Source of the DNA: a virus
Length of the DNA stretch: 37,342 bases
Reading direction: 5' to 3' (one strand)
Virus record (IMG/VR): IMGVR_UViG_3300032242_003209
Span: 1 to 37,342 of that record
The notes below the pieces were generated by a model that was not told where the DNA came from, did no database searches, and was given only the letters and a program-made list of their open reading frames with translations. The position numbers and the translations under genes were made by a program. Of the stretch, positions 2,872 to 22,809 are shown piece after piece. How positions within the stretch are numbered: position 1 is the first letter of the stretch; each line of letters opens with the position of its first letter.

Positions 2872-5721
2872 ATGCCAGGAACATCAGGACTCGTACCAGG
2901 ATTACAATTACCGTTTGGAATACAACCGGTGAATCCACTACCTGTGGATGTATGGTCAGGACCCTACTACAGCGATACCATACCTAATGCGATTGCATTA
3001 GCTAATTCAAACATTCCGTCTGCAATTAGGTTTCAATCCATGGAGGTTCGACTTGTAATAAATGGAATATCGTATAAGTACTGGTACCGAGATGGAATTT
3101 TAGACACTGACCTTGTTAGCCTTGCTCTAAGCGGCTCATCTGGAACTAGCGGATCAGACGGTTCATCCGGGACGTCAGGTAGTTCTGGATTAAGTGGTGT
3201 TGACGGATCAAATGGAACAAGCGGAACTTCTGGCTCTTCTGGAACCTCAGGTACTTCTGGCTCTTCAGGTTCATCTGGAACCTCAGGATCAACCGGTTCT
3301 TCCGGTACATCAGGTTCATCTGGAACTTCAGGGACGTCTGGCTCGAATGGATCGTCAGGAACAAGCGGAACTTCTGGTTCGTCAGGGACATCAGGCTCTA
3401 ATGGTACATCTGGCACAAGTGGATCACCAGGAATGTCAGCTGGAGGTTTGCTACTCTACTTGAACTACGCAGAGAGTCTTACTCCATCGATCACTCCATT
3501 AACTCCAACTCAGTTACAGACGATTACTGGCCAGCCGATGCAATCTGCCACTCACTTGCAATATTTACCTGTCCACAATACTAATGTTAGCCAGCTTAGT
3601 ATAACACCAATGCTATCAGATCCACAAACAATAATAACTTTCACAACTCCTAGTTCAGCAACGGTAGATGTTCCAGTTGTTCAGTTTGCACTAAATATCA
3701 GTGATTTGCCCGGGTCGCCTACTATCTTGCCTCCAGGTATATGGGATTTAAACCTCTACGCAAAGGCTGACGCAAATAATGATACTAATAACATAGGATT
3801 AAGATATTGGCTTCTTGGAAAAACAAGCGGTGGATCTTACACTGCACTAAATTCAACAGGTTCAGATATTGCATACCTATATGAGTTTTCAAGTTATCAG
3901 GCAATAACTCTAAGCTTAGTTATCGGTGCGCCTTTAACAATTACTGGATATTCTGAATTACATATTGTAATTACAAGTAGAAATCGTAATTCAAGTTCAC
4001 ACACGGCTGAAGTGTACTTCCAAGATGGCACTTACTCTCACTTACACACCTCGTTTGTATCAAATGGTACTTCTGGAACCTCAGGTACTTCTGGCTCTTC
4101 AGGTTCATCTGGAACCTCAGGTTCATCTGGAACCTCAGGTACTTCTGGAACCTCAGGTTCGTCAGGTTCATCTGGAACTTCTGGTTCTGCCGGTACGTCT
4201 GGCTCTTCTGGATTATCTGGTATTAGCGGTTCATCTGGAACCTCAGGTACTTCTGGCTCGTCAGGTTCATCTGGAACCTCAGGTACTTCTGGCTCGTCAG
4301 GTTCATCTGGAACCTCAGGTACTTCTGGCTCGTCAGGTTCATCTGGAACCTCAGGTACTTCTGGCTCTTCAGGTTCATCTGGAACCTCAGGTACTTCTGG
4401 CTCTTCAGGTTCATCTGGAACCTCAGGTACTTCTGGCTCTTCTATCTCATATATTAACGATTCAACTACATCAGGTTCAACAGTTTGGAGTAGTACTAAA
4501 TTATCTACGTCTGTGTTCTTCCAGTCCGGAAACAGCTTTGGTGCAACTGCTCGGCTAGGAACAATCGATAATTACGATTTAAGTTTTACAACTAATAACA
4601 CGACAGATCGACTTATCATAAAGGCAAATGGTTATCTATGGCGAAATGGAACAACGTATCCGGTAGATTTTAGAGAAACTTCCACTGTTCTTGTAAATTC
4701 AAAATACTCAGCAGTAAACTTCACCGTCCCTTCGAATCCTATTGCCAATTCTACTGACACAGTTGGGTTCGTAATTAACCCTGGAGCAGCTTATAGTTCA
4801 GGAGGTTTTTCATCATTTCAGCATTTTGAGTTTGGAGTTAACAATTATGCAGGCACTCAAGTATTTGGAATTAACTCAGACATTTATGGAAATGGAACGC
4901 CTCAGGTCAATGTAGGGCTAAGATCAGCAATACCTAATAATGCGTATGGTGGCGTTTTTGTATATAATGCAAGTTCAACTGCCACTCGTTTATTCACAGG
5001 AAGAGATAGCGTAATCGGAGAGACATTTAGTGTTGATAAGTCAGGAAACCTCAATGCATACACATCAATCTCTAATAGATATGTAACTATGTCCTGGAGT
5101 GCAAATGCTGTTGCCGGAACTACTGACTCGTTTATTGGAATACACGCAGGATCTTCTCCAAATAAGGAATTATGGATTGCTTCTGGAAGTTCAGTAAATA
5201 GAGCAACGACTAACACTACTGTATATTATGGAGTTAGTCATGCTGACTCAAATAAAAAGGGTAGAATAGTTACAGTAGCCTCATACGACGGTACTAACTC
5301 CATTTATGGAAGCATCGGTTTTGTGGTTGGAGTTAGTTATAACTTTAATCAACCTACCGTCGAGATAATGGCAGACGAAAAAATTGCAGTTGGTTACTAC
5401 GGAAACGTAACTCGAAATTCATCCACTTCTGGTTTATCTGCTAAATTCAATGTTAGGCATAATAGCTCAAACACGACTGACGAAATCTTGAACGTCCAGA
5501 CTGGTGTTTCAGGGAATGCGGTAATTTTTAGAGTTTTAAATAATGGAAATTTAGGTATAAATCTAAATTCATTTGGCTCCGGCGCCGGTGTCATTGCAAT
5601 AGGAAATGCATCAGCGGTTCCTTCAGCTAATCCGACTGGAGGAGGAATTCTATATGTAGATTCAGGTGCTTTAAAGTACAGAGGTACCTCAGGAACTGTG
5701 ACCACTGTTGCATCTGCTTAG
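2872..5721 (+). CDS. Long tail fibre with two Gly-Ser/Thr collagen-like linkers
   Basis: A 949-residue protein in five parts: an N-terminal domain (1-85, containing RLVINGISYKYWYRDG); a Gly-X-Ser triplet linker (about 86-187); a globular beta domain (about 190-395); a second triplet linker (about 398-524); and a long C-terminal beta-rich domain (525-949), ending in a glycine-rich segment (GGGILYVDSGALKYRG). The linkers keep Gly every third residue but use Ser/Thr instead of Pro, so they are collagen-like in spacing only. Such architecture is typical of trimeric phage fibres. The dense Ser/Thr content makes them plausible O-glycosylation substrates for enzymes encoded next door. Shadow reading frames on both strands across the linkers are by-products of the repeats. 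Confidence 0.7.
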   Translation: MPGTSGLVPGLQLPFGIQPVNPLPVDVWSGPYYSDTIPNAIALANSNIPSAIRFQSMEVRLVINGISYKYWYRDGILDTDLVSLALSGSSGTSGSDGSSGTSGSSGLSGVDGSNGTSGTSGSSGTSGTSGSSGSSGTSGSTGSSGTSGSSGTSGTSGSNGSSGTSGTSGSSGTSGSNGTSGTSGSPGMSAGGLLLYLNYAESLTPSITPLTPTQLQTITGQPMQSATHLQYLPVHNTNVSQLSITPMLSDPQTIITFTTPSSATVDVPVVQFALNISDLPGSPTILPPGIWDLNLYAKADANNDTNNIGLRYWLLGKTSGGSYTALNSTGSDIAYLYEFSSYQAITLSLVIGAPLTITGYSELHIVITSRNRNSSSHTAEVYFQDGTYSHLHTSFVSNGTSGTSGTSGSSGSSGTSGSSGTSGTSGTSGSSGSSGTSGSAGTSGSSGLSGISGSSGTSGTSGSSGSSGTSGTSGSSGSSGTSGTSGSSGSSGTSGTSGSSGSSGTSGTSGSSGSSGTSGTSGSSISYINDSTTSGSTVWSSTKLSTSVFFQSGNSFGATARLGTIDNYDLSFTTNNTTDRLIIKANGYLWRNGTTYPVDFRETSTVLVNSKYSAVNFTVPSNPIANSTDTVGFVINPGAAYSSGGFSSFQHFEFGVNNYAGTQVFGINSDIYGNGTPQVNVGLRSAIPNNAYGGVFVYNASSTATRLFTGRDSVIGETFSVDKSGNLNAYTSISNRYVTMSWSANAVAGTTDSFIGIHAGSSPNKELWIASGSSVNRATTNTTVYYGVSHADSNKKGRIVTVASYDGTNSIYGSIGFVVGVSYNFNQPTVEIMADEKIAVGYYGNVTRNSSTSGLSAKFNVRHNSSNTTDEILNVQTGVSGNAVIFRVLNNGNLGINLNSFGSGAGVIAIGNASAVPSANPTGGGILYVDSGALKYRGTSGTVTTVASA
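4228..4443 (+). repeat. 36-bp tandem repeat, six copies, in the fibre gene
   Basis: Six near-identical 36-bp units start at 4228, 4264, 4300, 4336, 4372 and 4408. Each encodes the 12-residue unit GSSGTSGTSGSS. Copies differ mainly at one codon (TCG versus TCT for Ser). Less regular versions of the same motif occupy 3130-3430 and 4066-4227. The repeat could expand or contract by recombination and so change fibre length. Confidence 0.85.
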
Positions 5722-6596: not shown

Positions 6597-6674
6597 ATGG
6601 TTGAAAATGTTTCAATCAGTATTTACTCGCTTGGAATTTTTGAGTATAAGAAGTCAAATCACAATTCTAAATGA
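6597..6674 (+). CDS. Possible 25-aa leader ORF overlapping the next start
   Basis: An ATG at 6597 opens a 25-codon frame (MVENVSISIY to KKSNHNSK). Its TGA at 6672-6674 overlaps the ATG of the 926-residue enzyme (6671) as ATGA. The overlap would allow re-initiation on the large gene. The remaining gap (6501-6596) is AT-rich and includes a short inverted pair, CCGT and ACGG, followed by a T-rich tract near 6572-6586, which may be a weak terminator. The peptide is too short to judge by composition, so it may be chance. Confidence 0.25.
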   Translation: MVENVSISIYSLGIFEYKKSNHNSK

Positions 6675-9451
6675 TAGTAAAGGCTCATACCTCAATAATT
6701 GGTGATACTGGATATAATTGCCACTCTAGAAATTTTTTCACATCACTAAATAAACTTAATCAGGTTCAGGTTAGAAATTGGACAGTTGGCTCCACCTGGA
6801 AAGGTTTAGTTAATGATGAACCTCACAATAATGAGTACTACATGACGTCTGAACTAAAGACGATGTTGACTCATCAAACTCTAGGCACTCCTAATGGCCA
6901 TACTGATTTTACGATTTATAGCGATCACTCTAATCTTGGAAAACCGGATGTTCATATTATCCTAAATGATAATACTCATCCCTACTTTTTTCAAGAGTAT
7001 GAAGGCCTTAAAATTGCTTATAATGTTTGGGAAACTACTCTACAACCTCAAGCGTTCTTTGTTCAATTACAAAAGTTCGATCAGGTATGGGTGCCTAGCG
7101 AATGGCAAAGAGGCTGTACAATAGCTCAAGGAATTCCAGCAAATAAGGTGAAGGTCGTTCCTGAAGGAGTCGATGCTGAGATTTACCGGCCATTATCTAG
7201 AGATGAAGTATTTCCAAAAGGTAGGCCGTTTAGATTCTTGGTAGTTGGCCGTTGGGAATACCGTAAATCCACTAAAGATATAATTAAAGCCTTTATTGAC
7301 TCTTTTTCTGATGACGAGAATGTTGAACTAATTCTAAACGTCGATAATCCATTTGCAAATGATGGCCTTAATACCACAGAAGAGAGGTTAAACCGATTTG
7401 GACTAAAACACGCCAGGATTAAAGTTGTCCATCATTTAAGCAAGGCTGATTATATTGAAATGGTCAGAACTGCTGACGTTTTTGTGTCATGCGCTAGAGC
7501 TGAGGGTTGGAATCTACCGTTGATTGAGGCAATGGCTAGCGGAGTCCCGTCTATCTATTCTGATTGGGGAGCTCAACTGCAGTTCGCAAAGGGCAAGGGA
7601 ATACCAATCATTAATAATGGAGAGGTTCTTGCTGCAGTTACGAATAATGAATCTTGGAATCCAACAACTCCTGGAAAATTTGCGGACCCAAACTTTGATG
7701 ATTTACGAGCAAAGCTTAGAGATGTCTACTCTAACTTTGAAAGTTATAAACGGCTTGCAGTACTTGATTCCGATCAAATACGCAAAGAGTTCACATGGGA
7801 AAATTCTTCTCAAATCGCACAAGATCACATCCTGGAACTCTTAACTCAAAAGCCAATTGAATATTCATCTGATTTTGTATGGGTGACCTGTGGAAACCTG
7901 GAGTACATGAAAGTCATTGAAAAATTAGCAATTTCGCTAGCTCAGTTTTCAACTCGAAAAATTTTGGTGTATGGAATTGACTGTGATTTTGAATTTAATT
8001 TGCCAAATGTTGAATTTCACAGACTTGAAATAGCTAGACATTCGGACAACGATTGCTGGTATTGGAAGCAGCATGCATGCCTCGAAGCATTAGCGAGCAG
8101 TAAGTTTAAAAATTACGTGTGGTTGGACGGAGATGTTATCGCAAACCATAATATAGACGAAGTTACTCAATACTTTCCTCTACTTGAGGATTACCCAATC
8201 TCTGATGTTCATGTTCAGCAAGACTTCATAGGCTTCTTTACTGAAACGAACGGTTCATTAGGCAAACAGTTATTTAATGAGGAACTTTGCAAACGGGAAA
8301 GAGTTAATCGTTTAGCAACTAAAGGTCATTCATGCATGTTCATATTTAACCATGCCTGTGATTGGTTCTTTACTAAAATCATTACTGTCTATAAATCGAC
8401 TCCATTACAAGATTACCAAAAACTTCTACAATGGAACGATGAAGGTATTGATAATTTTTTGAGGTGCAAGTATGGGTTCACGAAGTTCCTGCCGCTCTCT
8501 AACTTTGACGTATCTGAGTGGGATGGAGATCTGTTGGGAAAAACTGGCAAAGCAATGGAACACTTCATAACCTATTGGAGAGATCGAGGTCCGCTTAATT
8601 TTTCAAAGATATACGGTTGGCAATTTGTGCCCTCTGACAAATCTAAAATTCTTTACTTTCACGGAAATAAGAATTTAGAGTTTGCCGACTTCATGATCGA
8701 CTATGTTAAAATGCAACGAGATAAAAGCTTCCATGATTCCGAGTACTTTTTTGTTGGTAAAAATGAAGTTAAGAACCTGGGCTCAATCAAGGAGGTCCAT
8801 GGTGGAACTCTTGACATTGCCAATAAATACGGTTGGGACTATGCTATCTATCATGAGATCTATAATTTGGAAGATTACTCTCAACACGGAGTTAGGATCA
8901 GAAAGGGTGATGTTGTGGTCGATCTTGGTGGAAATATTGGAATATTTACTAGGTACTCGTATCACATGGGTGCGAGTAAAATCATTACTTTTGAACCCGA
9001 TAAACGGTACTTTGAAATTCTAAAACAGAATGCACCAGCCAACTCAGTCCTATTCAATGCAGCAATTGGTGATACCTTAGGAAAATTAACCCTGACTGAG
9101 AGTAATCATCTAGGCGGATCTAATTTATGGCATCGTACTGATCCAACCGTCAACCAGTATGAAGTTAATTGCTATACGCTCGATCACATTTTAGAGGCTG
9201 GTCTGGTTAACCGAATTGACTTTCTAAAGGTTGATATTGAAGGTTCAGAAATCATTGCACTAAATGGAATCAGCGATGATAACCTATCTAAAATTAGAAA
9301 CATTGTGGTTGAGTATCATCATGAACACCTAAAATTTAATGAGACTCTTCGAAATGAGTTCGTTATTCGACTAAATCGACTGGGATTTAATTCTCATCTG
9401 CAATTCTGTGGCATAAATGATGCTCTACAGTTAATTTACTTCTGGAAATAA
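6671..9451 (+). CDS. Trifunctional fusion: GT4-like glycosyltransferase, GT-A-like glycosyltransferase and FkbM methyltransferase
   Basis: This 926-residue protein has three enzyme regions. Residues 1 to about 395 are a GT-B enzyme of the GT4 type: VPSEWQRG, VVPEGVD, a VVGRWEYRK strand and the E-x7-E motif (Glu278 and Glu286 in AEGWNLPLIEAMASG). Residues about 395-690 form a second glycosyltransferase-like domain with a DxD-type motif (VWLDGDV, Asp486 and Asp488). Residues about 720-926 form an FkbM-family SAM methyltransferase (VVDLGGNIGIF from about 749, FEPD, and KVDIEGSE with Asp855). It probably builds and O-methylates a glycan on one polypeptide. The next gene is another giant glycosylation enzyme. 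Each domain is close to normal family length, so the fusion is unlikely to be an assembly artefact. Confidence 0.8.
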   Translation: MIVKAHTSIIGDTGYNCHSRNFFTSLNKLNQVQVRNWTVGSTWKGLVNDEPHNNEYYMTSELKTMLTHQTLGTPNGHTDFTIYSDHSNLGKPDVHIILNDNTHPYFFQEYEGLKIAYNVWETTLQPQAFFVQLQKFDQVWVPSEWQRGCTIAQGIPANKVKVVPEGVDAEIYRPLSRDEVFPKGRPFRFLVVGRWEYRKSTKDIIKAFIDSFSDDENVELILNVDNPFANDGLNTTEERLNRFGLKHARIKVVHHLSKADYIEMVRTADVFVSCARAEGWNLPLIEAMASGVPSIYSDWGAQLQFAKGKGIPIINNGEVLAAVTNNESWNPTTPGKFADPNFDDLRAKLRDVYSNFESYKRLAVLDSDQIRKEFTWENSSQIAQDHILELLTQKPIEYSSDFVWVTCGNLEYMKVIEKLAISLAQFSTRKILVYGIDCDFEFNLPNVEFHRLEIARHSDNDCWYWKQHACLEALASSKFKNYVWLDGDVIANHNIDEVTQYFPLLEDYPISDVHVQQDFIGFFTETNGSLGKQLFNEELCKRERVNRLATKGHSCMFIFNHACDWFFTKIITVYKSTPLQDYQKLLQWNDEGIDNFLRCKYGFTKFLPLSNFDVSEWDGDLLGKTGKAMEHFITYWRDRGPLNFSKIYGWQFVPSDKSKILYFHGNKNLEFADFMIDYVKMQRDKSFHDSEYFFVGKNEVKNLGSIKEVHGGTLDIANKYGWDYAIYHEIYNLEDYSQHGVRIRKGDVVVDLGGNIGIFTRYSYHMGASKIITFEPDKRYFEILKQNAPANSVLFNAAIGDTLGKLTLTESNHLGGSNLWHRTDPTVNQYEVNCYTLDHILEAGLVNRIDFLKVDIEGSEIIALNGISDDNLSKIRNIVVEYHHEHLKFNETLRNEFVIRLNRLGFNSHLQFCGINDALQLIYFWK

Positions 9452-9522: not shown

Positions 9523-12300
9523 ATGGCTCACACCGACCAACAGGAATTCTGTAAAAAAATGAAGACTCTGTTTCCAAAGTACTTTCATGGAAAACGCATC
9601 CTAGATATTGGCTCGCTCGATGTAAACGGAAATAACCGGTTTTTATTTGATAATTTAGACGGTTATATTGGACTAGACGTTGGAGAAGGTCCAAATGTTG
9701 ATGTATCAATACCGGGTCACAAGTACGATGCCCCGAACGAGTTCTTTGACGTCATTATTTCAACTGAGGTTTTCGAGCACGACCTGTACTATAAGGATAC
9801 AGTACAGAACGCAATTCGAATGCTCAAGCCAGGTGGAGCTTTTATATTCACATGTGCATCAGGCCAAAGACCTGAGCACGGAACTCGGCGCTGTGGTGAG
9901 CACAATGCTCCATTACTAATTCAACAATCCGAAGAATGGGCTGACTATTACCTGAACTTAGAAGAATCTGATTTTCTTGAAATACCCGGTTTTAAAGAAG
10001 CATTTCCAGACGGCATATTTGAATTGGGATGCTATGGAGAATTCAATAATGAATGGAATGAGCTTTACATGCATAACATTCATGCAGATATTTACTTCTT
10101 TGGAGTCAAGGGCGGAATCAAGAACGATTTAAAATATTCGGTCGACCATCGAAATCCTATTATTAATCCTGGTGAGTACTTGGATCACATATTCGTGGTT
10201 GATGCTTGGCCAAATACTCTAGAAAAGGAGTCTGATCTAATTGAAACTTTACAAAGACTTAGAGAGTTTAATGAAATTCCAATTCTACTAGTCAGTCATT
10301 ATCCAATAAAGCCTGAACTGCAAAAATTGATTGACTACTATATCTATGATAAAGAGAATCCTCTTCTATTAAATTCAGAATTCAATGAATATGGAGTAGC
10401 CAGTGGCAGATGGACCAAGACCGACGATTACTCAATAACCAACGAAATGGAGTACCATCATGATTACGCAATTTGGACGTCAATGGCCCATGCATTTAAT
10501 TTTTGTAAGTATTTGGGCAAGAAAGTAATCCATTTCATGGAGTACGACAACTTGATCGATACATTTCAATACAGGCAATCATTTCTTGAAAAATCTGAAG
10601 ATCATGATGCAGTTATTTATGAGTACATCTCAGGTTCAGCAAAGGACTCTCATTTTTCAGCGTACTGCGCGACTTACATTTTCTCAATTAAGACTGATAT
10701 AGCGATAAATGTGATCAATCAAATAAAAACAAAAAGAGATTACTTCACAAATAGGCCAAACGGCTGGCAATTAGAAAGAGTCTTCTTAGCCTGTTTACAA
10801 AAGACGACCTCTAACATTCACATGACTGAGTATATCGCTAATTCAAATGAGTTAAACACTCAAGCTGTTTGGAATCGTGATGGAATTCTTAGAGATGACG
10901 CTAAATTCCAGATTTACCTTGGAGCAGATAACTTTAATCAGCTCTACGTCCATCTAATTTCAGGATTTCACGAGTCTCCAGCAGATAAGGATTACCTAAT
11001 CGAGATTAGGTACGCCGAAACGACTAGATTTGAGACTCTAATGAATGGTCAATATCTGCTAATCTGTTTAGGCCAGTATCAAATAGGTCAAACCGTTGAG
11101 GTTCGATACTTGGGCAAAACTGTTTTTTCAGAGTTCCTCTATTCTACGATCGAAAAATTTAGAAAAATGAATTTTGTTCAAGTTAAAGACGAAGACTCTT
11201 CACAGGTTGACCTATCCTATAACTTTATTGATGGCGCATACGTTGAATTAAAGACAAATTTGTCAATTAAGTATACTGCAAATTTCATTAATAATTTAAC
11301 TGGCCAGCTGATCTACTCAGTCAATTTAGCTAATGGACACTGGGCTAAGACCTCCGCCAAATACATGATTGATTGGAGGATTGAACTTACTGATCCATCT
11401 GGCCGAATTGTCAAGACTGTTAACTTTGAACCTTTAGGTAAAAAGGTTCTAATTTCAATTGAGTCAAACTCTCTGGGGGATACGCTTGCCTGGTTTCCGT
11501 ACGTCGAAGAATTTAGAAAGAAGAACAGTTGTCGAGTAGTCTGTTCAACCTTTTGGAATGAATTATTTAGGGATACTTATCCAGAAATTGAGTTTTTAAA
11601 TCCAGGAGACACGGTTTTTGATCTGTATGCAGTTTATCGAATTGGTTGGTATTATGATGGTGACCAACCTGAACTAAATAGGAACCCAATTGACTTTAGG
11701 CTTGGGCCATTACAGAAAACAGCATCTGACATCTTAGGCCTTGACTATTATGAAATCAAATCCATCATTAATTTTCCAAAAAGAAAATTAACTAAAAAAG
11801 TTGGACTTGGAATACACAGTACGGCTCAAGCCAAGTATTGGAATAATCCTATTGGGTGGCAACAAGTCACTGACTGGTTAATCCAAAATGGTTACGAACC
11901 AATCATTTTGTCCAGGGAAGACTCAGGGTTCATGGGTAATCTACATCCAACCGGCGCAACTAAATTGCCGGCCGGTCCAATAAAATCGGTGATAAACGAG
12001 CTAACTGAGTGTCAGGCATTTGTCGGTATTAGTAGTGGTTTAACTTGGGTAGCATGGGCAACGAATACTCCCACTATTCAAGTATCCGGGTTGACATACG
12101 AGTTCAACGAACCCAATGCTGGCATAATTAAATTAACTCCTCCGGCTGGTGCTTGTTCAGGGTGTATGAATCGAATCAGACTGGACCAAGGTGATTGGGA
12201 ATGGTGCCCAGAACATAAGGGCACAGGCCGGCAATTTGAGTGTTCTAAATTAATCACAGCGGATCGGGTGATTAATGAGCTCAAAAAAATTCTAGTATAG
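9523..12300 (+). CDS. Multidomain enzyme: SAM methyltransferase, unassigned middle domain and TibC/AAH-type O-heptosyltransferase
   Basis: A 925-residue protein. Residues 20-205 are a class I SAM methyltransferase (RILDIGSLD with Asp28 and Gly30, FDVIISTEVFEHD, MLKPGGAFIFTC). Residues about 210-460 form a second domain that may be a glycosyltransferase (EYHHDYAIWTSMAHA, HFMEYDN). From about 480 to the end it matches the bacterial autotransporter heptosyltransferase family (strand-loop-strand O-heptosyltransferase): SNSLGDTLAWFPYVEEFRKK, YAVYRIGW, PLQKTASDILGL and the SSGLTWVAWA strand. Cys878, Cys881, Cys895 and Cys907 form the C-x2-C/WCP/QFEC metal site known in TibC. Family members transfer heptose to Ser in adhesin repeats. 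Here the likely acceptors are the neighbouring Ser/Thr-rich fibres, which is inference. Confidence 0.8.
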   Translation: MAHTDQQEFCKKMKTLFPKYFHGKRILDIGSLDVNGNNRFLFDNLDGYIGLDVGEGPNVDVSIPGHKYDAPNEFFDVIISTEVFEHDLYYKDTVQNAIRMLKPGGAFIFTCASGQRPEHGTRRCGEHNAPLLIQQSEEWADYYLNLEESDFLEIPGFKEAFPDGIFELGCYGEFNNEWNELYMHNIHADIYFFGVKGGIKNDLKYSVDHRNPIINPGEYLDHIFVVDAWPNTLEKESDLIETLQRLREFNEIPILLVSHYPIKPELQKLIDYYIYDKENPLLLNSEFNEYGVASGRWTKTDDYSITNEMEYHHDYAIWTSMAHAFNFCKYLGKKVIHFMEYDNLIDTFQYRQSFLEKSEDHDAVIYEYISGSAKDSHFSAYCATYIFSIKTDIAINVINQIKTKRDYFTNRPNGWQLERVFLACLQKTTSNIHMTEYIANSNELNTQAVWNRDGILRDDAKFQIYLGADNFNQLYVHLISGFHESPADKDYLIEIRYAETTRFETLMNGQYLLICLGQYQIGQTVEVRYLGKTVFSEFLYSTIEKFRKMNFVQVKDEDSSQVDLSYNFIDGAYVELKTNLSIKYTANFINNLTGQLIYSVNLANGHWAKTSAKYMIDWRIELTDPSGRIVKTVNFEPLGKKVLISIESNSLGDTLAWFPYVEEFRKKNSCRVVCSTFWNELFRDTYPEIEFLNPGDTVFDLYAVYRIGWYYDGDQPELNRNPIDFRLGPLQKTASDILGLDYYEIKSIINFPKRKLTKKVGLGIHSTAQAKYWNNPIGWQQVTDWLIQNGYEPIILSREDSGFMGNLHPTGATKLPAGPIKSVINELTECQAFVGISSGLTWVAWATNTPTIQVSGLTYEFNEPNAGIIKLTPPAGACSGCMNRIRLDQGDWEWCPEHKGTGRQFECSKLITADRVINELKKILV

Positions 12301-15277: not shown

Positions 15278-15302
15278 TAAAAAAGCGACACCTTGTCGCT
15301 TT
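15278..15302 (-). terminator. Terminator hairpin between tmRNA and ykuK-like gene
   Basis: A 9-bp perfect stem (plus-strand AAAGCGACA at 15282-15290 and TGTCGCTTT at 15294-15302) with a 3-base loop. On the minus strand it is followed by a T-rich tract (TTTTTTAATTAAAAA), so it works best as a minus-strand terminator. It is the second hairpin downstream of the tmRNA. Confidence 0.75.
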
Positions 15303-15347: not shown

Positions 15348-15392
15348 CAAAAAATGGTACTCCAAATAGACCCTAAGCTATCCGAAGTACCA
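15348..15392 (-). terminator. First terminator of the tmRNA gene
   Basis: On the minus strand TGGTACT (15392-15386) pairs with AGTACCA (15361-15355), with a nested ATAG/CTAT stem, and is followed by ATTTTTT. It starts about 10 bases after the encoded CCA end of the tmRNA. The stretch from 15303 to 15348 holds no recognisable gene. Confidence 0.6.
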
Positions 15393-15401
15393 AAATTGTC
15401 A

Positions 15402-15778
15402 TGGTGGAGACGGGCGGAATCGAACCGCCGTCCAAAAAATATCCAACCAAACCCTCATTTACACGCTTGGACAATTTTTCTAAACTGACAAAATATCCTC
15501 GGTTTTTTTACGTCTGACCTTGGAAGCTAGACGCTGAATTTGTAATTTCGGAACAAGTCATCTAATCCGTTGCGCAACTTTGGGTCGGTCGAGCAGTTGC
15601 CGCTCGGTCGCTTAGGCTACTAAAAGCTCTTCAGCAACTGGAGAGTTAACTGTGTCGTTAACAAGGCTCCAAAAGTTTACAGTGTTGCCACTTATGGTTC
15701 TGATACATTATTACGAGGATAGCATCTTCCTCGGCGTGCAGGCGTGACCGATAATCCATGTCAAAGCCGGTCGTCCCC
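15402..15778 (-). ncRNA. ssrA: Transfer-messenger RNA (tmRNA), phage-encoded, one-piece
   Basis: A 377-nt minus-strand RNA. The 5' end GGGGACG (from 15778) pairs with CGUCUCC near the 3' end, one G-U included, to make the 7-bp acceptor stem, followed by A and an encoded CCA at 15404-15402. The T arm is the canonical GGTTCGATTCC within GGACGGCGGTTCGATTCCGC. The 5' region GACCGGCTTTGACATGGAT is the usual tmRNA D-loop-like segment. A tag reading frame, resuming at GGC (15689) after CATAAGT, encodes 25 residues beginning GNTVNFWSLV and ending PVAEELLVA, then TAA (15614-15612). The hydrophobic LLVA end is a normal protease signal. tmRNA with SmpB rescues stalled ribosomes and tags the nascent chain. 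No smpB gene is in the window. Confidence 0.93.
15612..15689 (-). other. tmRNA tag-peptide reading frame
   Basis: Twenty-five codons plus TAA. The frame is fixed by the in-frame stop and by the resemblance of CATAAGT-GGC-AAC to E. coli AATAGTC-GCA-AAC. The tag starts GNTVNFW and ends EELLVA. At 25 residues it is much longer than the 10-residue E. coli tag added after the alanine. Confidence 0.75.
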
Positions 15779-15799: not shown

Positions 15800-15807
15800 T
15801 ATTTATA
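15800..15807 (-). promoter_or_regulatory. Candidate late promoter for tmRNA, exact TATAAATA
   Basis: The minus-strand octamer TATAAATA ends 21 bases upstream of the mature tmRNA 5' end. The mature end is normally cut by RNase P, so the transcript start could lie in between. It forms a divergent pair with the motif at 15841. Confidence 0.5.
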
Positions 15808-15840: not shown

Positions 15841-15848
15841 GATAAATA
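15841..15848 (+). promoter_or_regulatory. Candidate late promoter GATAAATA
   Basis: GATAAATA followed by AA ends 22 bases before the ATG of the gp6-like gene at 15871. It is the plus-strand member of the divergent promoter region 15779-15870. Confidence 0.4.
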
Positions 15849-15870: not shown

Positions 15871-17568
15871 ATGGCAACCAATTTAACTGACCAAAATACG
15901 AACTTAAGACTTTTCACCAGTCTCAAAATACGAGTTAGAGACCTGTTGACTGAAAGCATAACCTTTCTGCAGAACACGTTTAAGCAGAGCAGGTCAGTAT
16001 TCACAGCGGCCTCGCCCTTCGGTCAAATACTAATTGTCATTGAGAACCTAAGTCAGCTCATATTCTATTACATCGAAGATGCGATAACCGAGTTAAACAT
16101 CAATGAGGCAAGTCGAGTCTCTTCCATCTACTCCTTAGCCTCTCTAGCAGGCCATAATCCAAGTAGAGCGATTGGGGCGACCGCTCAGATCAGAATCATT
16201 CGCAAGCCGAACATCACGCCAACCGCAAGCAAGGCAATACTAAACAATCTATTTAGGGTTCGTTGCGAAAATAACGGGCTGACCTATGTAATTGAATTGG
16301 TGCAGGATGAAGTTAGGCTTTCTTTAACCGGAACCGCGACAATATCGTTATTTAACATTAGACAGGGACAGATCGAATCTCAAACCTTTACTGCCAAGGG
16401 AAAGGCTTTTGATAGCTATCAATTGGGATCCCCGAATAATTTTTACATTGATAATTTTAACGTTAATGTTTACGTGAACGGCGAAAAATGGACAAAGTAC
16501 GACTCGTTGCTTGACATGCCAAGGGGAGGTAAATGCTTTCTTGCAAGGACTGGTATAACTAATGGACTTGACATATACTTTGGGAACGGTTCTTTTGGTA
16601 AGATTCCGGACACCGGGTCAACCATCACAGTTGAATACTTAGTAACTGACGGCAGCGCAGGTAACGTTAAGGTAGACGATCCAAGGCACGTTCAATTTAG
16701 CTTCGTCGACACCGGGTTTTCACCGATCGGAGAGGAATTATCAATGAACGAGTACTTTTCAATAGTGACAGTGAGTCCTCCTAACTTCGGAGTTGACCCT
16801 GAGGATCCTAGCCTAACTCGATTAATTGCTCCAAAGGCCTCTAAAAATTTCGCACTAGTTAACACGGATAATTACGAGATCCTACTGCAAAAAATGCAAA
16901 TGTTCTCAACGATCAAAGTTTACCTTGATCAAGATAAGAACGGAAACGTTCTAGATGCTAGAATGATTAACTTGTTTTTGGTTCCCGATGTTACCCAGAT
17001 GTTTAAAAATGGAACTGATTACTTTAACCTGCCAATCACCAACTTTAAACTTAACAACTTTCAAAAGAATGAGCTATTGAAATACGTTGAAAAATCCGGT
17101 ACAAAAATGATTTCGTCTGACGTTAAAATAGTCGATCCAACCGTCACCAGGTACGTGTTAAACGTTAGCATAATCGCATTTGATGATACATCAACTGACA
17201 TCATTAAGTCGGACATCGCTGACGTGGTTGGAGCCTATTTCATTAAGTTAAAAAGACACGATAGAGTTCCTAAAAGCGATTTGATCGCAGCTATCGAAGG
17301 AATTAGATCAGTTGACTCGGTTAGCGTAAATATATTAAGTGAGCTAAATGAGCTAGATAAGACAAGCAATCCAAGTTCAAGTAATCTAATAGGGCTTGAT
17401 GAATTTAACGACATCATCATTGCGCTAGATGAGTTTCCTGTGCTTAGAGGAGGTTGGACAGATAGCCTTGGAAATAAGTACTCTGAGGGTCTTTCCGATA
17501 CCTCTTTGGGAGCTTTAAACATTCAAATAAAATCAGTCGTCCAACGTAAAAATATCGGTATCGTATGA
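15871..17568 (+). CDS. Baseplate wedge protein, T4 gp6 / baseplate J-like
   Basis: A 565-residue protein. The N-terminal third has the helix typical of gp6/J proteins (GQILIVIENLSQLIFYYIEDAITELNI), followed by SLASLAGHNPSRAIGATAQIRI, where such proteins switch to beta structure. The middle carries FGNGSFGKIPDTGSTITVEYLVTDGSAGN, a hallmark of baseplate J-like proteins. The C-terminal part has RYVLNVSIIAFDDTSTDIIKSDIADVVGAYF and DLIAAIEGIRSVDSVSV, the usual ending module. It is somewhat shorter than T4 gp6 (660 residues). It forms part of the wedge that contracts on infection. It leads an operon with an 81-residue ORF, TerS and TerL, with the next ATG overlapping its stop (ATGA). Confidence 0.75.
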   Translation: MATNLTDQNTNLRLFTSLKIRVRDLLTESITFLQNTFKQSRSVFTAASPFGQILIVIENLSQLIFYYIEDAITELNINEASRVSSIYSLASLAGHNPSRAIGATAQIRIIRKPNITPTASKAILNNLFRVRCENNGLTYVIELVQDEVRLSLTGTATISLFNIRQGQIESQTFTAKGKAFDSYQLGSPNNFYIDNFNVNVYVNGEKWTKYDSLLDMPRGGKCFLARTGITNGLDIYFGNGSFGKIPDTGSTITVEYLVTDGSAGNVKVDDPRHVQFSFVDTGFSPIGEELSMNEYFSIVTVSPPNFGVDPEDPSLTRLIAPKASKNFALVNTDNYEILLQKMQMFSTIKVYLDQDKNGNVLDARMINLFLVPDVTQMFKNGTDYFNLPITNFKLNNFQKNELLKYVEKSGTKMISSDVKIVDPTVTRYVLNVSIIAFDDTSTDIIKSDIADVVGAYFIKLKRHDRVPKSDLIAAIEGIRSVDSVSVNILSELNELDKTSNPSSSNLIGLDEFNDIIIALDEFPVLRGGWTDSLGNKYSEGLSDTSLGALNIQIKSVVQRKNIGIV

Positions 17569-17810: not shown

Positions 17811-18550
17811 TGGCACAAGTATTTTCAAAGGAAAAAAAGCAGCAGATAAAAGGCGAACTTGAGGAACTGTTAAGAACCTACTCAGGAGGACCAAATGCAA
17901 TAGATGACGAGAACATAGATGCTCAGATGTCAGAGATTGCTGCGGCTCCACCCTTAAATTTCTCGGAAATGAATTCTGAGTTTGAAAAACAGGCAAAGGC
18001 AATAACGTCCTCAATGCTAAAATTTTACGTTGACCTTGGAGTAATTGAGAAACATGAGTACGTGCAACAAAAGCAAATTCTAGATAATTCAAGCATTCAA
18101 AATATTTTTTTTCAGCTAAAGACTCTACGGATGGCAATCGAAAGAATAGCTGAGGAGATTAACCAGGGAAATTCTCACCCAAGGCTATTTGAAGTCTTTG
18201 GGCAGTTGCAGGATAAATTAACGTCAGTCGTTAAAACTCAGGCAAATTACATGTTGTTCCTAGAGGACACTTACAAGAAAATCAAACAGGAGATTGACCA
18301 GAATGAATCACCAACCGGTCAATCCACAAAATCAATATCTGCAAATACCGGAGACTACTACATAACCGCCGGAACCAAAAATTTAATGAAAGAAATTGAG
18401 GTCGTCGAAGTAGAAGATGAAGTTGACACTCGAAGGTTAACTCATCCGAGCAAAAAAATAGAAGTGATGACTGAACGCGGGCTATCTGATGGAATTATAG
18501 CCGAGGAAGATTCAGAGGACTTCTCAGACGATGTCAATTCACTAATATGA
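17810..18550 (+). CDS. Terminase small subunit, T4 gp16-like
   Basis: A 246-residue protein with a long central helical region and an acidic C-terminus. Residues 121-160 (NSHPRLFEVFGQLQDKLTSV, then a helix ending TYKKIKQEI) parallel the central domain of T4 gp16 ([22 protein letters not shown]). The following NTGDYYITAGTKNLMKEIE matches gp16 NATVFMGSPTELMDEIG in position. The gene directly precedes TerL, overlapping it by four bases (ATGA), as expected for 16 and 17. The protein forms a ring that recognises phage DNA and regulates TerL. It is longer than T4 gp16 (164 residues), mainly at the N- and C-termini. Confidence 0.7.
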   Translation: MAQVFSKEKKQQIKGELEELLRTYSGGPNAIDDENIDAQMSEIAAAPPLNFSEMNSEFEKQAKAITSSMLKFYVDLGVIEKHEYVQQKQILDNSSIQNIFFQLKTLRMAIERIAEEINQGNSHPRLFEVFGQLQDKLTSVVKTQANYMLFLEDTYKKIKQEIDQNESPTGQSTKSISANTGDYYITAGTKNLMKEIEVVEVEDEVDTRRLTHPSKKIEVMTERGLSDGIIAEEDSEDFSDDVNSLI

Positions 18551-21165
18551 GAGATTTCATAGCAAGCTCAGGAGGTCGTACTCGAATGAAGCTTTCCAAT
18601 TTGGACGCTGAGAATAGCGCAATTTGGACAACGGAAAAGGTCAATAAACTTCTTGAGGATTTCGAGAATGGATTAATTGACATAAAAACAATCAAGAACT
18701 CCCCATTTAAGGATAATGATCCGGTTTGGAAAAAGGCAAACATCGTATTCGAATACACGCCTGATGAACTTGAAGAACTTAAGAAATGCAAGAGCGATCC
18801 AATTTACTTTGCGAATAAGTACGCTCAAGTAATGCAAGAACATGGGATTGACCAAATTAATCTCAGAGATTACCAGGAGGAGATAATTAAGTCATTTAAG
18901 GATAATCGATTTAACATTTTAATGGCTTCCCGGCAAATCGGCAAATGTTTTTACCCATCTACTCTAATTATTATACAACCAATCAATGCAATAGTTTTAA
19001 CAAGTTTTCTAAATTTCTCAAAAAAATCAAAAATAATTGATCCAGTAGAATTATCAATTTCTACTATTGCTTCAGAGCTTTATTTTTATTTTAAATCATT
19101 AAGAAAGCCACTTAACATTTTCGACAAGATTCGTAGATATTGCTACATCTTTGTCTCAGATTTGTCATGGATAAAATACATTGCTAAGCTAATAATATTC
19201 CTAATCGAAAGGTATGAATTTAGAAATAAGAAGCTAGATCAGAATAACTTAGCTGACAAATTTCAAGAAGCATTTTCGGTAGATTCGCTTTTCAGCATTA
19301 AGACGGACACCGGATTTTCTCCAATTGCTCTATGTAATAGGACTCAGCCGTATAACCTATGGAAAATAGAGACGATCTCTGGAAAAACTCTAGAGGGAGC
19401 GGATCACCATATTCTCTTTAGGCCTGATCTTAGTCAAGTATTAATTTCTGAACTTAAGGTTGGTGATCTGATAGTAACAGTTGACGGTGCCGAGAGAGTG
19501 ACCTTGATAAAATCTAGCGATTTGGCCCTATCCATGTTAGACTTTTCGTTAGCTGACTTTAATCATAGGTACTGGACAAACGGAATACTTTCTCATAATA
19601 CTGTCATGTCGGGAGTGTTCATAGCTTGGTACTTAGTATTTCACACCGATAAGAACGTGTTGGCCGTTGCTAACGTTGCATCAACAACCAAGGAGGTGCT
19701 AGATAAAATTAAGTCAGTGTTGGAAAATCTGCCGTTCTTTTTGAAACCTGGTTGCATTTCGAATAACGTAATGTCAATGAAATTCGATAACGGTTGCAGA
19801 TTGATAGGTCGTACCACAACTAAAAACACAGGTATTGGTTTTACAATTCACGTGCTGTACATAGATGAGTTCGCTCACATTAACCCAGCGTACCTAGATT
19901 TCTTTTATCGAGCAATTTATCCAACTATTACAGGTGCAGGTTCCCAATCAAAGGTGATAATAACGTCAACTCCAAACGGTATGAACCGGTTTCATGATAT
20001 TTACGTGGAGGCAGTTATCGGTAAAAATTCATACGTGCCTTTACGAGTTGACTGGTGGCAGGTTCCAGGTAGGGATGATGAATGGAAAAAAATGACGATC
20101 GCTAACTTAGGCTCGGAGGAAGATTTTAACCAGGAGTACGGATTACAGTTCTTTTCTTCAGACAAGTTATTACTACCTTCCAAGGATCTTAAAAAGGTGT
20201 TCTCATTTAAAATAGCTTATCAGGTTCCCGACTGGGCTCAGGAACCTGATGTTGAGGCATTAATGGACGGTTTCTCAGCGCACCCGAACTTTGCCAAGTT
20301 ATCAATTGATGACATACGAAATGATGGAAATAATTACATTTTTTCAATAGATACGGCAAGCGGAGTTGGTCGAGATTACTCAGTCGTTAACATTTTCAAG
20401 TTAACCGCTCTACCTGTTAAACTATTGGAACAGATCAAACAGTTCATTAAGAACGAAGGCGACCTATTCACCCTGGTTCAAGTTGCATCCCTAAGAACTA
20501 ACAAAAAGGACATTAACGAGTTTTGTAATTCGATCGAGCATCTATTATACAAGGTGTTTAATTACGAAAAGGTTAAGATCCTATTGGAATTGGATCACAA
20601 GGGTGATTACGTGCTTGACAAGCTTAGCCAAAGCGAAGATTTCTGGCCTGGAATAATAATTCATTCCAAGCACACAGTGTCATCAGTTCACTGGAAACCG
20701 GGTCTTAAAATGACAGAGACCAACAAAACAAAATACTGCGAAAGATTTAAGTACCTAGTCGCTGTTAATAAAATCTTACCTAATGAATTTAAGACGGTTC
20801 ACGAATTGGGATCCTTCGGTAAGATGAATAACGGAACCTATCGAAGCCAAAACGGCAACGACGATTTGGCAATGACATGCGTTGCAACCTCGGCGTTCTT
20901 TGAATCTCCCAACTTTTGGGAATTGGTAAACGAGGAGCTTGATAGGTTACCTAAAGAATATTTAAAAGAGGTTTATGCGAAGTACTTGGGCACCGAGTAC
21001 GCTGGAACGGCCTCACAGTACGATTACGATTCATTAAGATCGCTAAATACTACGCCTGAGGTTACAAAACCTGGAGCAACCAGAAGAGTTGACGAAAGTT
21101 ACATCAGCTCATATAAGGAGGTAATGGAAAAATTTTACGGAAAAAGTCAATCAAATGAAAACTAA
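18547..21165 (+). CDS. Terminase large subunit (T4 gp17-like) carrying an in-frame mini-intein
   Basis: The 872-residue precursor contains a 218-residue intein at residues 134-351 and would give a 654-residue mature protein. After removal, the ATPase P-loop reads ASRQIGK-TVMSG, as in T4 gp17 (SRQLGKT). Walker B is LYIDEFAHINP (Asp440 and Glu441 in the precursor), followed by the coupling motif TSTPNGMN. The C-terminal RNase H-like nuclease has FSIDTASGVGRDYS (Asp602), ILLELDHKGDYV and GNDDLAMTCVA, the usual three acidic motifs. TerL drives DNA into the prohead and cuts the concatemer. Without splicing the P-loop is interrupted between Lys and Thr, so packaging should depend on splicing. The gene overlaps TerS upstream and the next small ORF by 11 bases. 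Confidence 0.9.
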   Translation: MRDFIASSGGRTRMKLSNLDAENSAIWTTEKVNKLLEDFENGLIDIKTIKNSPFKDNDPVWKKANIVFEYTPDELEELKKCKSDPIYFANKYAQVMQEHGIDQINLRDYQEEIIKSFKDNRFNILMASRQIGKCFYPSTLIIIQPINAIVLTSFLNFSKKSKIIDPVELSISTIASELYFYFKSLRKPLNIFDKIRRYCYIFVSDLSWIKYIAKLIIFLIERYEFRNKKLDQNNLADKFQEAFSVDSLFSIKTDTGFSPIALCNRTQPYNLWKIETISGKTLEGADHHILFRPDLSQVLISELKVGDLIVTVDGAERVTLIKSSDLALSMLDFSLADFNHRYWTNGILSHNTVMSGVFIAWYLVFHTDKNVLAVANVASTTKEVLDKIKSVLENLPFFLKPGCISNNVMSMKFDNGCRLIGRTTTKNTGIGFTIHVLYIDEFAHINPAYLDFFYRAIYPTITGAGSQSKVIITSTPNGMNRFHDIYVEAVIGKNSYVPLRVDWWQVPGRDDEWKKMTIANLGSEEDFNQEYGLQFFSSDKLLLPSKDLKKVFSFKIAYQVPDWAQEPDVEALMDGFSAHPNFAKLSIDDIRNDGNNYIFSIDTASGVGRDYSVVNIFKLTALPVKLLEQIKQFIKNEGDLFTLVQVASLRTNKKDINEFCNSIEHLLYKVFNYEKVKILLELDHKGDYVLDKLSQSEDFWPGIIIHSKHTVSSVHWKPGLKMTETNKTKYCERFKYLVAVNKILPNEFKTVHELGSFGKMNNGTYRSQNGNDDLAMTCVATSAFFESPNFWELVNEELDRLPKEYLKEVYAKYLGTEYAGTASQYDYDSLRSLNTTPEVTKPGATRRVDESYISSYKEVMEKFYGKSQSNEN
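18946..19599 (+). mobile_element. Mini-intein in the terminase P-loop, 218 aa
   Basis: The first residue is Cys (CFYPSTLI, block A). Block B is a GKTLEGADHHILF-like segment. Block F is LDFSLADFNHRYW, and the C-terminus NGILSHN (block G) is followed by extein Thr. This is the order of a class 1 intein. The length equals a splicing domain without an obvious LAGLIDADG or HNH homing endonuclease. Residues about 15-105 of the insert are AT-rich, hydrophobic and unlike the flanking extein, and may be the remains of an endonuclease or a foreign linker. Block B lacks its usual Thr (Ala or Gly there). In families with this motif, splicing needs the block B His, which is present. Confidence 0.85.
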
Positions 21166-22182: not shown

Positions 22183-22809
22183 ATGAATTCTTACGAAGTA
22201 TTAAACAAACAGCTAAACGACGAAATGCAGAGCCTGGCCGAGCTCATTAAAACCGGCAAACACACGGAACGGGACAGGAATCGACTTGCCTCAATAATGT
22301 ATCCCAAGTTAAGGTATTTCATTTGGAAATTCTTTCATGATGATGATGAGACCGAAGAGGTGATACATAACACGATGCTAAAGATATTCAAGGGACTTTC
22401 TTCGTATAGCGACACGTACCGATTCACAACCTGGATCTATACGATCGCTAAAAACGAAGCCTTATTACATCAGCATAAGCTTAAGGTGCAGTACTCAATC
22501 AGCATTGATAACTTACTCAAACCTCTAAACATACCTGATGACCATGAGATAAATTTAGAAAAGGAAAAATGCTTTGATGATTTGTACGTCATGTTTCAAG
22601 TCGAAATAATTGACATGCCGGACTGTCTAGAAAAGTCGATTTTGATCGATAAGGAAATTTATCAAATGAAAGGTAAGGAAATTTCTGAAAAGTACGAAAT
22701 GAACCTTAATACGATCAAGACCAAGATTAGAAAGGCCAGAAAAATGATAAAGACCGCAATTCTAACAAAGAATCCAGAAATGATAGAAAAAATAGAGGAT
22801 TACTTTTAA
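22183..22809 (+). CDS. ECF-type RNA polymerase sigma factor, candidate late sigma
   Basis: A 208-residue protein with both core sigma-70 domains. Region 2 is residues 35-100 (YPKLRYFIWKFF, then ETEEVIHNTMLKIFKGLSSY, then RFTTWIYTIAKNEAL). Region 4 is about 148-194, with a helix-turn-helix around residues 163-186 (KGKEISEKYEMN, NTIKTKIRKARK). There are no regions 1.1 or 3. It would recruit host RNA polymerase to specific promoters. It follows PhoH by 16 bases in the packaging cluster. Given the T4-late-like motifs nearby, it may replace gp55, which is inference. Confidence 0.75.
   Translation: MNSYEVLNKQLNDEMQSLAELIKTGKHTERDRNRLASIMYPKLRYFIWKFFHDDDETEEVIHNTMLKIFKGLSSYSDTYRFTTWIYTIAKNEALLHQHKLKVQYSISIDNLLKPLNIPDDHEINLEKEKCFDDLYVMFQVEIIDMPDCLEKSILIDKEIYQMKGKEISEKYEMNLNTIKTKIRKARKMIKTAILTKNPEMIEKIEDYF

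Follow-up and report, generated by a model that had tools for sequence, protein, structure and literature searches.

The transfer-messenger RNA (tmRNA) gene ssrA of a 37,342-base virus record (IMG/VR IMGVR_UViG_3300032242_003209, analysed at its full length and called the window here) encodes an unusually long peptide tag, and a conserved RNA hairpin is built into the reading frame of that tag, which the first-pass annotation of this DNA had not noticed. The source is a large, lake-water phage whose host is probably a member of the Bacteroidota. We think it reasonably probable, though well short of assured, that the locus is a trans-translation module of the phage, expressed late and with an altered tag. 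Our search of the literature, with most subscription papers beyond its reach, found no account of a conserved hairpin lying wholly inside a tag frame.

The identity of the gene is the simplest part of the argument, since ARAGORN and Rfam agree on a complete, one-piece tmRNA with an encoded CCA, as had been proposed. ARAGORN reports a single RNA gene in the window, the tmRNA at 15402-15778 (minus strand) with the tag GNTVNFWSLVNDTVNSPVAEELLVA, and the Rfam model RF00023 matches between the same ends over positions 1-374 of 374, with a score of 116.5 bits (gathering threshold 47; E 4.6e-45), so that the proposal survives the Infernal test set for it by the first-pass annotation. The acceptor stem has 7/7 pairs, including G3-U70, and the T-arm is present; among 25 alleles, G3-U70 is found in every one and all seven acceptor pairs in 24. 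Judged by its sequence, this is a complete, alanine-type tmRNA. The pairings of pseudoknots PK1 and PK2 are present, the PK2 pattern recurring in 21 of the 25 alleles, and those of PK3 and PK4 are weak in the Rfam alignment.

The frame of the tag is intact from the resume GGC (15689-15687) to the stop TAA (15614-15612), which bears out both the predicted 25 residues and the predicted resumption at GGC. This is unusually long, as had been claimed, being more than double the usual bacterial length; Bacteroidota chromosomal tags have 9 residues, and the commonest tag length in the tmRNA database paper is 10. The frame is kept, with substitutions, in all alleles, and the tags of the window's clade run to 24-26 residues (for example GNTTFWSLVNQGVNTPVTEELLAA, GNTNFWSLVNESVNAPVTEELLAA, DNNITFWSLVNQVNTPATEELLLAA and GNTSIWDVINGFVGAPATEVEYAVAA); two loci with 57% baseplate identity carry a short tag, GNTKLAMAA, of 9 residues. 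The extra length corresponds to about 15 codons that the mRNA-like region has gained after the resume codons (GNT) and before helix H5, and the insert encodes a hydrophobic peptide of the form F/I-W-x-L/V-V/I-N...V-N. The C-terminus is also hydrophobic and degron-like, being LLAA in most alleles and LLVA in the window. Two tags (L136 and L166) end ELVEA, with a charged residue beside the last Ala, which is unusual as a degron end. The tag of mycobacteriophage Bxz1 is, we presume, long as well.

The extra codons form the hairpin, which lies upstream of H5 and also appears when the whole window tmRNA is folded. Folded alone, it reaches -11.2 kcal/mol (z -3.2), and z among eight alleles is -2.0 to -3.9 in seven and -0.8 in one. 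The RNAalifold consensus of the 25 alleles recovers it without its being specified, and across 15 distinct tag regions 98% of hairpin cells are paired, compared with 35-51% when the partners are slid. One clade (L041, L046 and L050) has two compensatory pairs, G-C to A-U and U-A to C-G; the paired-cell count and the covariation score lie above all shuffles, and the number of two-sided pairs is not significant by the same kind of test (105/500). The codon pattern agrees. Within the FWSLVN group the inner stem keeps Val GUU and Asn AAC without drift, except for AAC to AGC, which preserves a U-G pairing, and the Leu codon of the internal loop varies (CTT, CTA, CTC and TTA). Conservation extends to H5, which covers the end of the tag and shows two-sided changes at three pairs. 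The conservation of the stem, the codon pattern and H5 therefore make both the RNA hairpin and the encoded peptide look selected.

Hairpin and FWSLVN segment may together be an added module that serves RNA stability or compactness, ribosome pausing or the binding of a protease adaptor. In a stronger version, which we regard as doubtful, the tag frame would serve two purposes late in infection, in partnership with a dedicated phage SmpB: its hairpin would act on tmRNA maturation or on the ribosome, and its peptide would direct tagged chains to something other than the usual ClpXP decay. The first-pass annotation had suggested that the phage may provide tmRNA at times of disturbed host translation, or may alter which protease takes the tagged chains. 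It is also conceivable, although decidedly unlikely in our view, that the FWSLVN segment attracts a different protease or an adaptor of phage or host origin, and so reroutes tagged chains. The peptide is indeed conserved beyond the stem, with the residue staying Leu or Val despite synonymous drift of the Leu codon, and with Phe staying Phe or Ile outside the stem; however, the hairpin itself partly forces conservation of the peptide, and no adaptor was identified, though none was searched for.

The first-pass annotation had asked whether the host tag differs, and the phage tag does differ from those of Bacteroidota chromosomes. Across bacterial genomes the tag pattern matched one contig, C291 (254 kb), in a Bacteroidetes metagenome-assembled genome; C291 is a phage contig, colinear with the window, and its binning with this genome suggests a host link without being proof of one. 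The chromosomal tmRNA of the same genome adjoins an rseP-like gene and has the ARAGORN tag EANYAMAA, probably GEANYAMAA with the preceding GGC, and related Bacteroidota genomes have GNTQYAMAA, GEYNYAMAA, GENNYAMAA and similar tags. The chromosomal tmRNAs (RF00023) share with that of the phage the one-piece form, the tRNA-like domain, PK1, H5 and the resume GGC, and their tags often start GN or GE and end AA, as phage tags do; the difference is between 9 residues and 24-26 residues with an extra hairpin inside the frame. So strong a divergence would suit a decoy, in which the main effect of the phage tmRNA is to win SmpB, EF-Tu and stalled ribosomes from the tmRNA of the host, while the long tag makes degradation weaker or different and thereby spares phage protein fragments. 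We consider this unlikely, since selection maintains the frame and stop codon of the tag as well as H5, none of which a decoy needs, the C-terminus is still degron-like in nearly all alleles, and within the window's clade SmpB is supplied by the phage itself.

Relatives of the locus were collected through the neighbouring baseplate gene, of which IMG/VR holds at least 131; 80 were kept for analysis and 68 of these had sufficient upstream sequence. The tmRNA stands at the same place and in the same orientation in 58 of the 68, among them every one of the 55 whose baseplate identity is 57% or higher, and is missing from that place in 10 more distant ones; its 5' end is about 80-140 nucleotides upstream of the baseplate gene in all 57 relatives measured. 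On the baseplate tree a single group of 18 rows (support 93/96) takes in the FWSLVN/IWDVIN tags, and the window sits within a well-supported set of 9. A search for DNA similarity between the window and annotated phages found none. Such a fixed place across the clade means that the tmRNA is not a passing passenger. A neutral, captured host gene, functionless in the phage and acquired for instance by integration at ssrA, is accordingly very improbable: ssrA is a common integration site (PMC9004378; PMC11915505) and the phage tag shares its initial GNT with host tags such as GNTQYAMAA, yet the place is fixed across a divergent clade, the functional elements are conserved and the substitutions keep structure.

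ARAGORN missed the tmRNAs of L054, L136 and L166, which were found by reading, L054 being added through Rfam. The tag DNA pattern GGNAAYACNGTNAAYTTYTGG gave 5 matches in viral contigs, among which ARAGORN saw 0 tmRNAs, and the FWSLVN DNA pattern matches many ordinary genes, the tags being only those that follow GGCAAC or GACAAC. The ARAGORN tags of L072 and L080 (VKADLEHL...) were dropped, because the sequence itself reads DNMSTWTFEDAMSFVGADLAVAA. Together with L071 these two carry 23-residue tags of another kind, with a common TFEDAMSFVGA and an AxAA end; all three are distant relatives, ungrouped on the baseplate tree, and this distribution hints at exchange of tmRNA genes. In the TFEDAM tags of L071 and L072 a hairpin folds only weakly (z -1.5), hence we claim none there.

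The protein partner of tmRNA is the second element of the argument. It had been noted that the window has no smpB, which is true; the absence that this implied is not supported, for relatives in the clade encode SmpB, and a fragment of 37 kb such as the window says little about whether the gene is lacking. PF01668 is found in six contigs, from three species, of the window's clade: G001-G004 (one species, about 271 kb), G007 and C291. In all six, smpB lies about 76-78 kb from the tmRNA once orientation and circular permutation are allowed for. A scan of viral contigs gave nine SmpB loci. The phage protein matches PF01668 at 152 bits over positions 1-138 of 143, a full-length domain, and keeps the GKKxxDKR start of the tail; the phage SmpBs are 74-98% identical among themselves and at most 51% identical to the Bacteroidota SmpBs compared. 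The host SmpB may also serve the phage tmRNA. On C291, smpB (91,078-91,500) falls within locus L230 (83,794-95,598), among many proteins that start like MKYIKLFESFITE or MKLKRFTQFITES. These N-termini resemble those that target T4 proteins to the capsid, and 31 of the 318 open reading frames (ORFs) of C291 fit an N-terminal pattern, written after seeing them, compared with 2.9 in shuffled N-termini.

As regards expression, the claim that the gene has its own promoter-like motif and terminator is upheld. A T4-type late motif, TATAAATA, stands 21 nucleotides before the tmRNA 5' end, and TATAAATA or GATAAATA is found upstream of the tmRNA in most alleles. On C291, 71 of 120 [TGA]ATAAATA sites are within 80 nucleotides upstream of a same-strand ORF and 3 are upstream of an opposite-strand ORF only, whereas CATAAATA scores 3 of 31 and is not associated with gene starts. 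A late motif that is linked to gene starts makes late expression of the tmRNA likely. Nearer its 5' end there is also a motif like TAGTATAATA, possibly a second promoter; on C291, TAGTATAATA precedes a gene at all 8 of its sites, standing 5-8 nucleotides before the start codon at 7 of them, and it may be a promoter giving leaderless mRNAs. The strong terminator after the gene (15355-15392, minus strand) is followed by a bidirectional hairpin (15282-15302), and terminator-like sites number 4, with 0.6 expected.

We therefore return to the reading that we favour, in which the locus would supply the RNA component of a trans-translation system that the phage encodes, under a late-type promoter. 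Late in infection much phage mRNA would be made and degraded, and the phage tmRNA, aided by SmpB of phage or host origin, would enter ribosomes stalled on broken mRNAs and free them; the 25-residue tag would be added to the stalled chain, and its C-terminus would direct the resulting fragment to proteases of the ClpXP type. We infer each of these steps: that expression is late, that the tmRNA is charged with alanine, that it rescues stalled ribosomes and that tagged chains decay through such proteases. Several observations weigh against this reading. In the window itself, a plain count shows no enrichment of the late motif. The phage SmpB has a somewhat shorter tail, which lacks the basic residues at the end of the Bacteroidota proteins, and it went undetected in two sister-clade contigs (G005 and G008) that should cover its place; the partner is therefore not universal. 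Finally, covariation in the hairpin is modest, because it is confined to one evolutionary branch, the sister clade that contains L041.

Phage tmRNA, phage SmpB and both together (in Lak phages) are already known. A tmRNA is present in 402 of 18,146 phage genomes (PMC9004378), a published list includes those of mycobacteriophages Bxz1 and Wildcat and Bacillus phage G (PMC4131195), phages that are unrelated to this one and have unrelated hosts, and tmRNA with SmpB has been reported in huge phages (PMC7162821). The Lak phages are close in kind, having tmRNA and SmpB, both confirmed here in Lak genomes (LR756500), and a related baseplate protein (PMC7162821); their tags are 10 residues long (DDEIDFRMAA by eye, GNNAEMRMAA by ARAGORN), against 25 in the window. 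Methylophage Melnitz likewise has a tmRNA alongside T4-like genes, but it is two-piece, of alphaproteobacterial type, with a glutamine riboswitch and an early promoter (PMC9004378). The bS21 phages of freshwater Bacteroidota offer a different parallel, being large lake phages with a late-expressed, reverse-strand translation gene in a structural cluster, which encodes the bS21 protein and not a tmRNA (PMC9723584). The 25 natural alleles, with the gene at one place, the tag rebuilt around a hairpin and a diverged SmpB partner, make both the role of phage trans-translation and the variability of the tag directly testable at the bench.

Table 1. Features of the tmRNA locus and its surroundings in the window.
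Feature	Coordinates	Strand	Basis or remark
One-piece tmRNA gene (ssrA), CCA encoded	15402..15778	-	ARAGORN; Rfam RF00023, full-length
Pseudoknot PK1	15702..15733	-	CGAGGA/UCCUCG and GAUGC/GUAUC complementarity read from sequence; fits Rfam model region
Tag reading frame, 25 codons + TAA, GNTVNFWSLVNDTVNSPVAEELLVA	15612..15689	-	ARAGORN; frame conserved across 25 alleles
RNA hairpin wholly within tag frame, UGGAG ccuu GUUAAC gacaca GUUAAC u CUCCA	15639..15671	-	Folding, RNAalifold, pair counts, codon pattern
Helix H5, over tag end and stop codon	15607..15638	-	3 pairs changed on both sides
Pseudoknot PK2	15574..15605	-	Stem GAGC/GCUC; loop GCAACU pairing AGUUGC
Late promoter motif of tmRNA, T4-type, TATAAATA	15800..15807	-	21 nucleotides before tmRNA 5' end
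Late promoter motif of baseplate gene, GATAAATA	15841..15848	+	Motif search
Intrinsic terminator after tmRNA	15355..15392	-	Terminator prediction, strong
Divergent neighbour encoding baseplate wedge, constant landmark of locus	15871..17568	+	PHROG 219
Sigma-like factor	22183..22809	+	Pfam Sigma70_r2, PHROG 1740

The setting is, as described earlier, a structural cluster, with T4-like genes for tail tube, baseplate wedge and terminase around the tmRNA, together with PhoH and the sigma-like factor, a candidate for recognising the late promoters. The tmRNA is closely followed, on its own strand, by a gene for an RNase H-like protein (PF04308; 14791-15258). Also inside the cluster are two proteins of about 925 residues (6671-9451 and 9523-12300) in which glycosyltransferase and methyltransferase domains are joined, and a 949-residue protein with long GTSGSSGTSG repeats is encoded at 2872-5721. 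The large terminase (18547-21165) carries a 218-residue in-frame insert between the GK and the T of its Walker A motif; the insert begins with Cys and ends HN, the terminase of C291 is without it, and it is very likely an intein.
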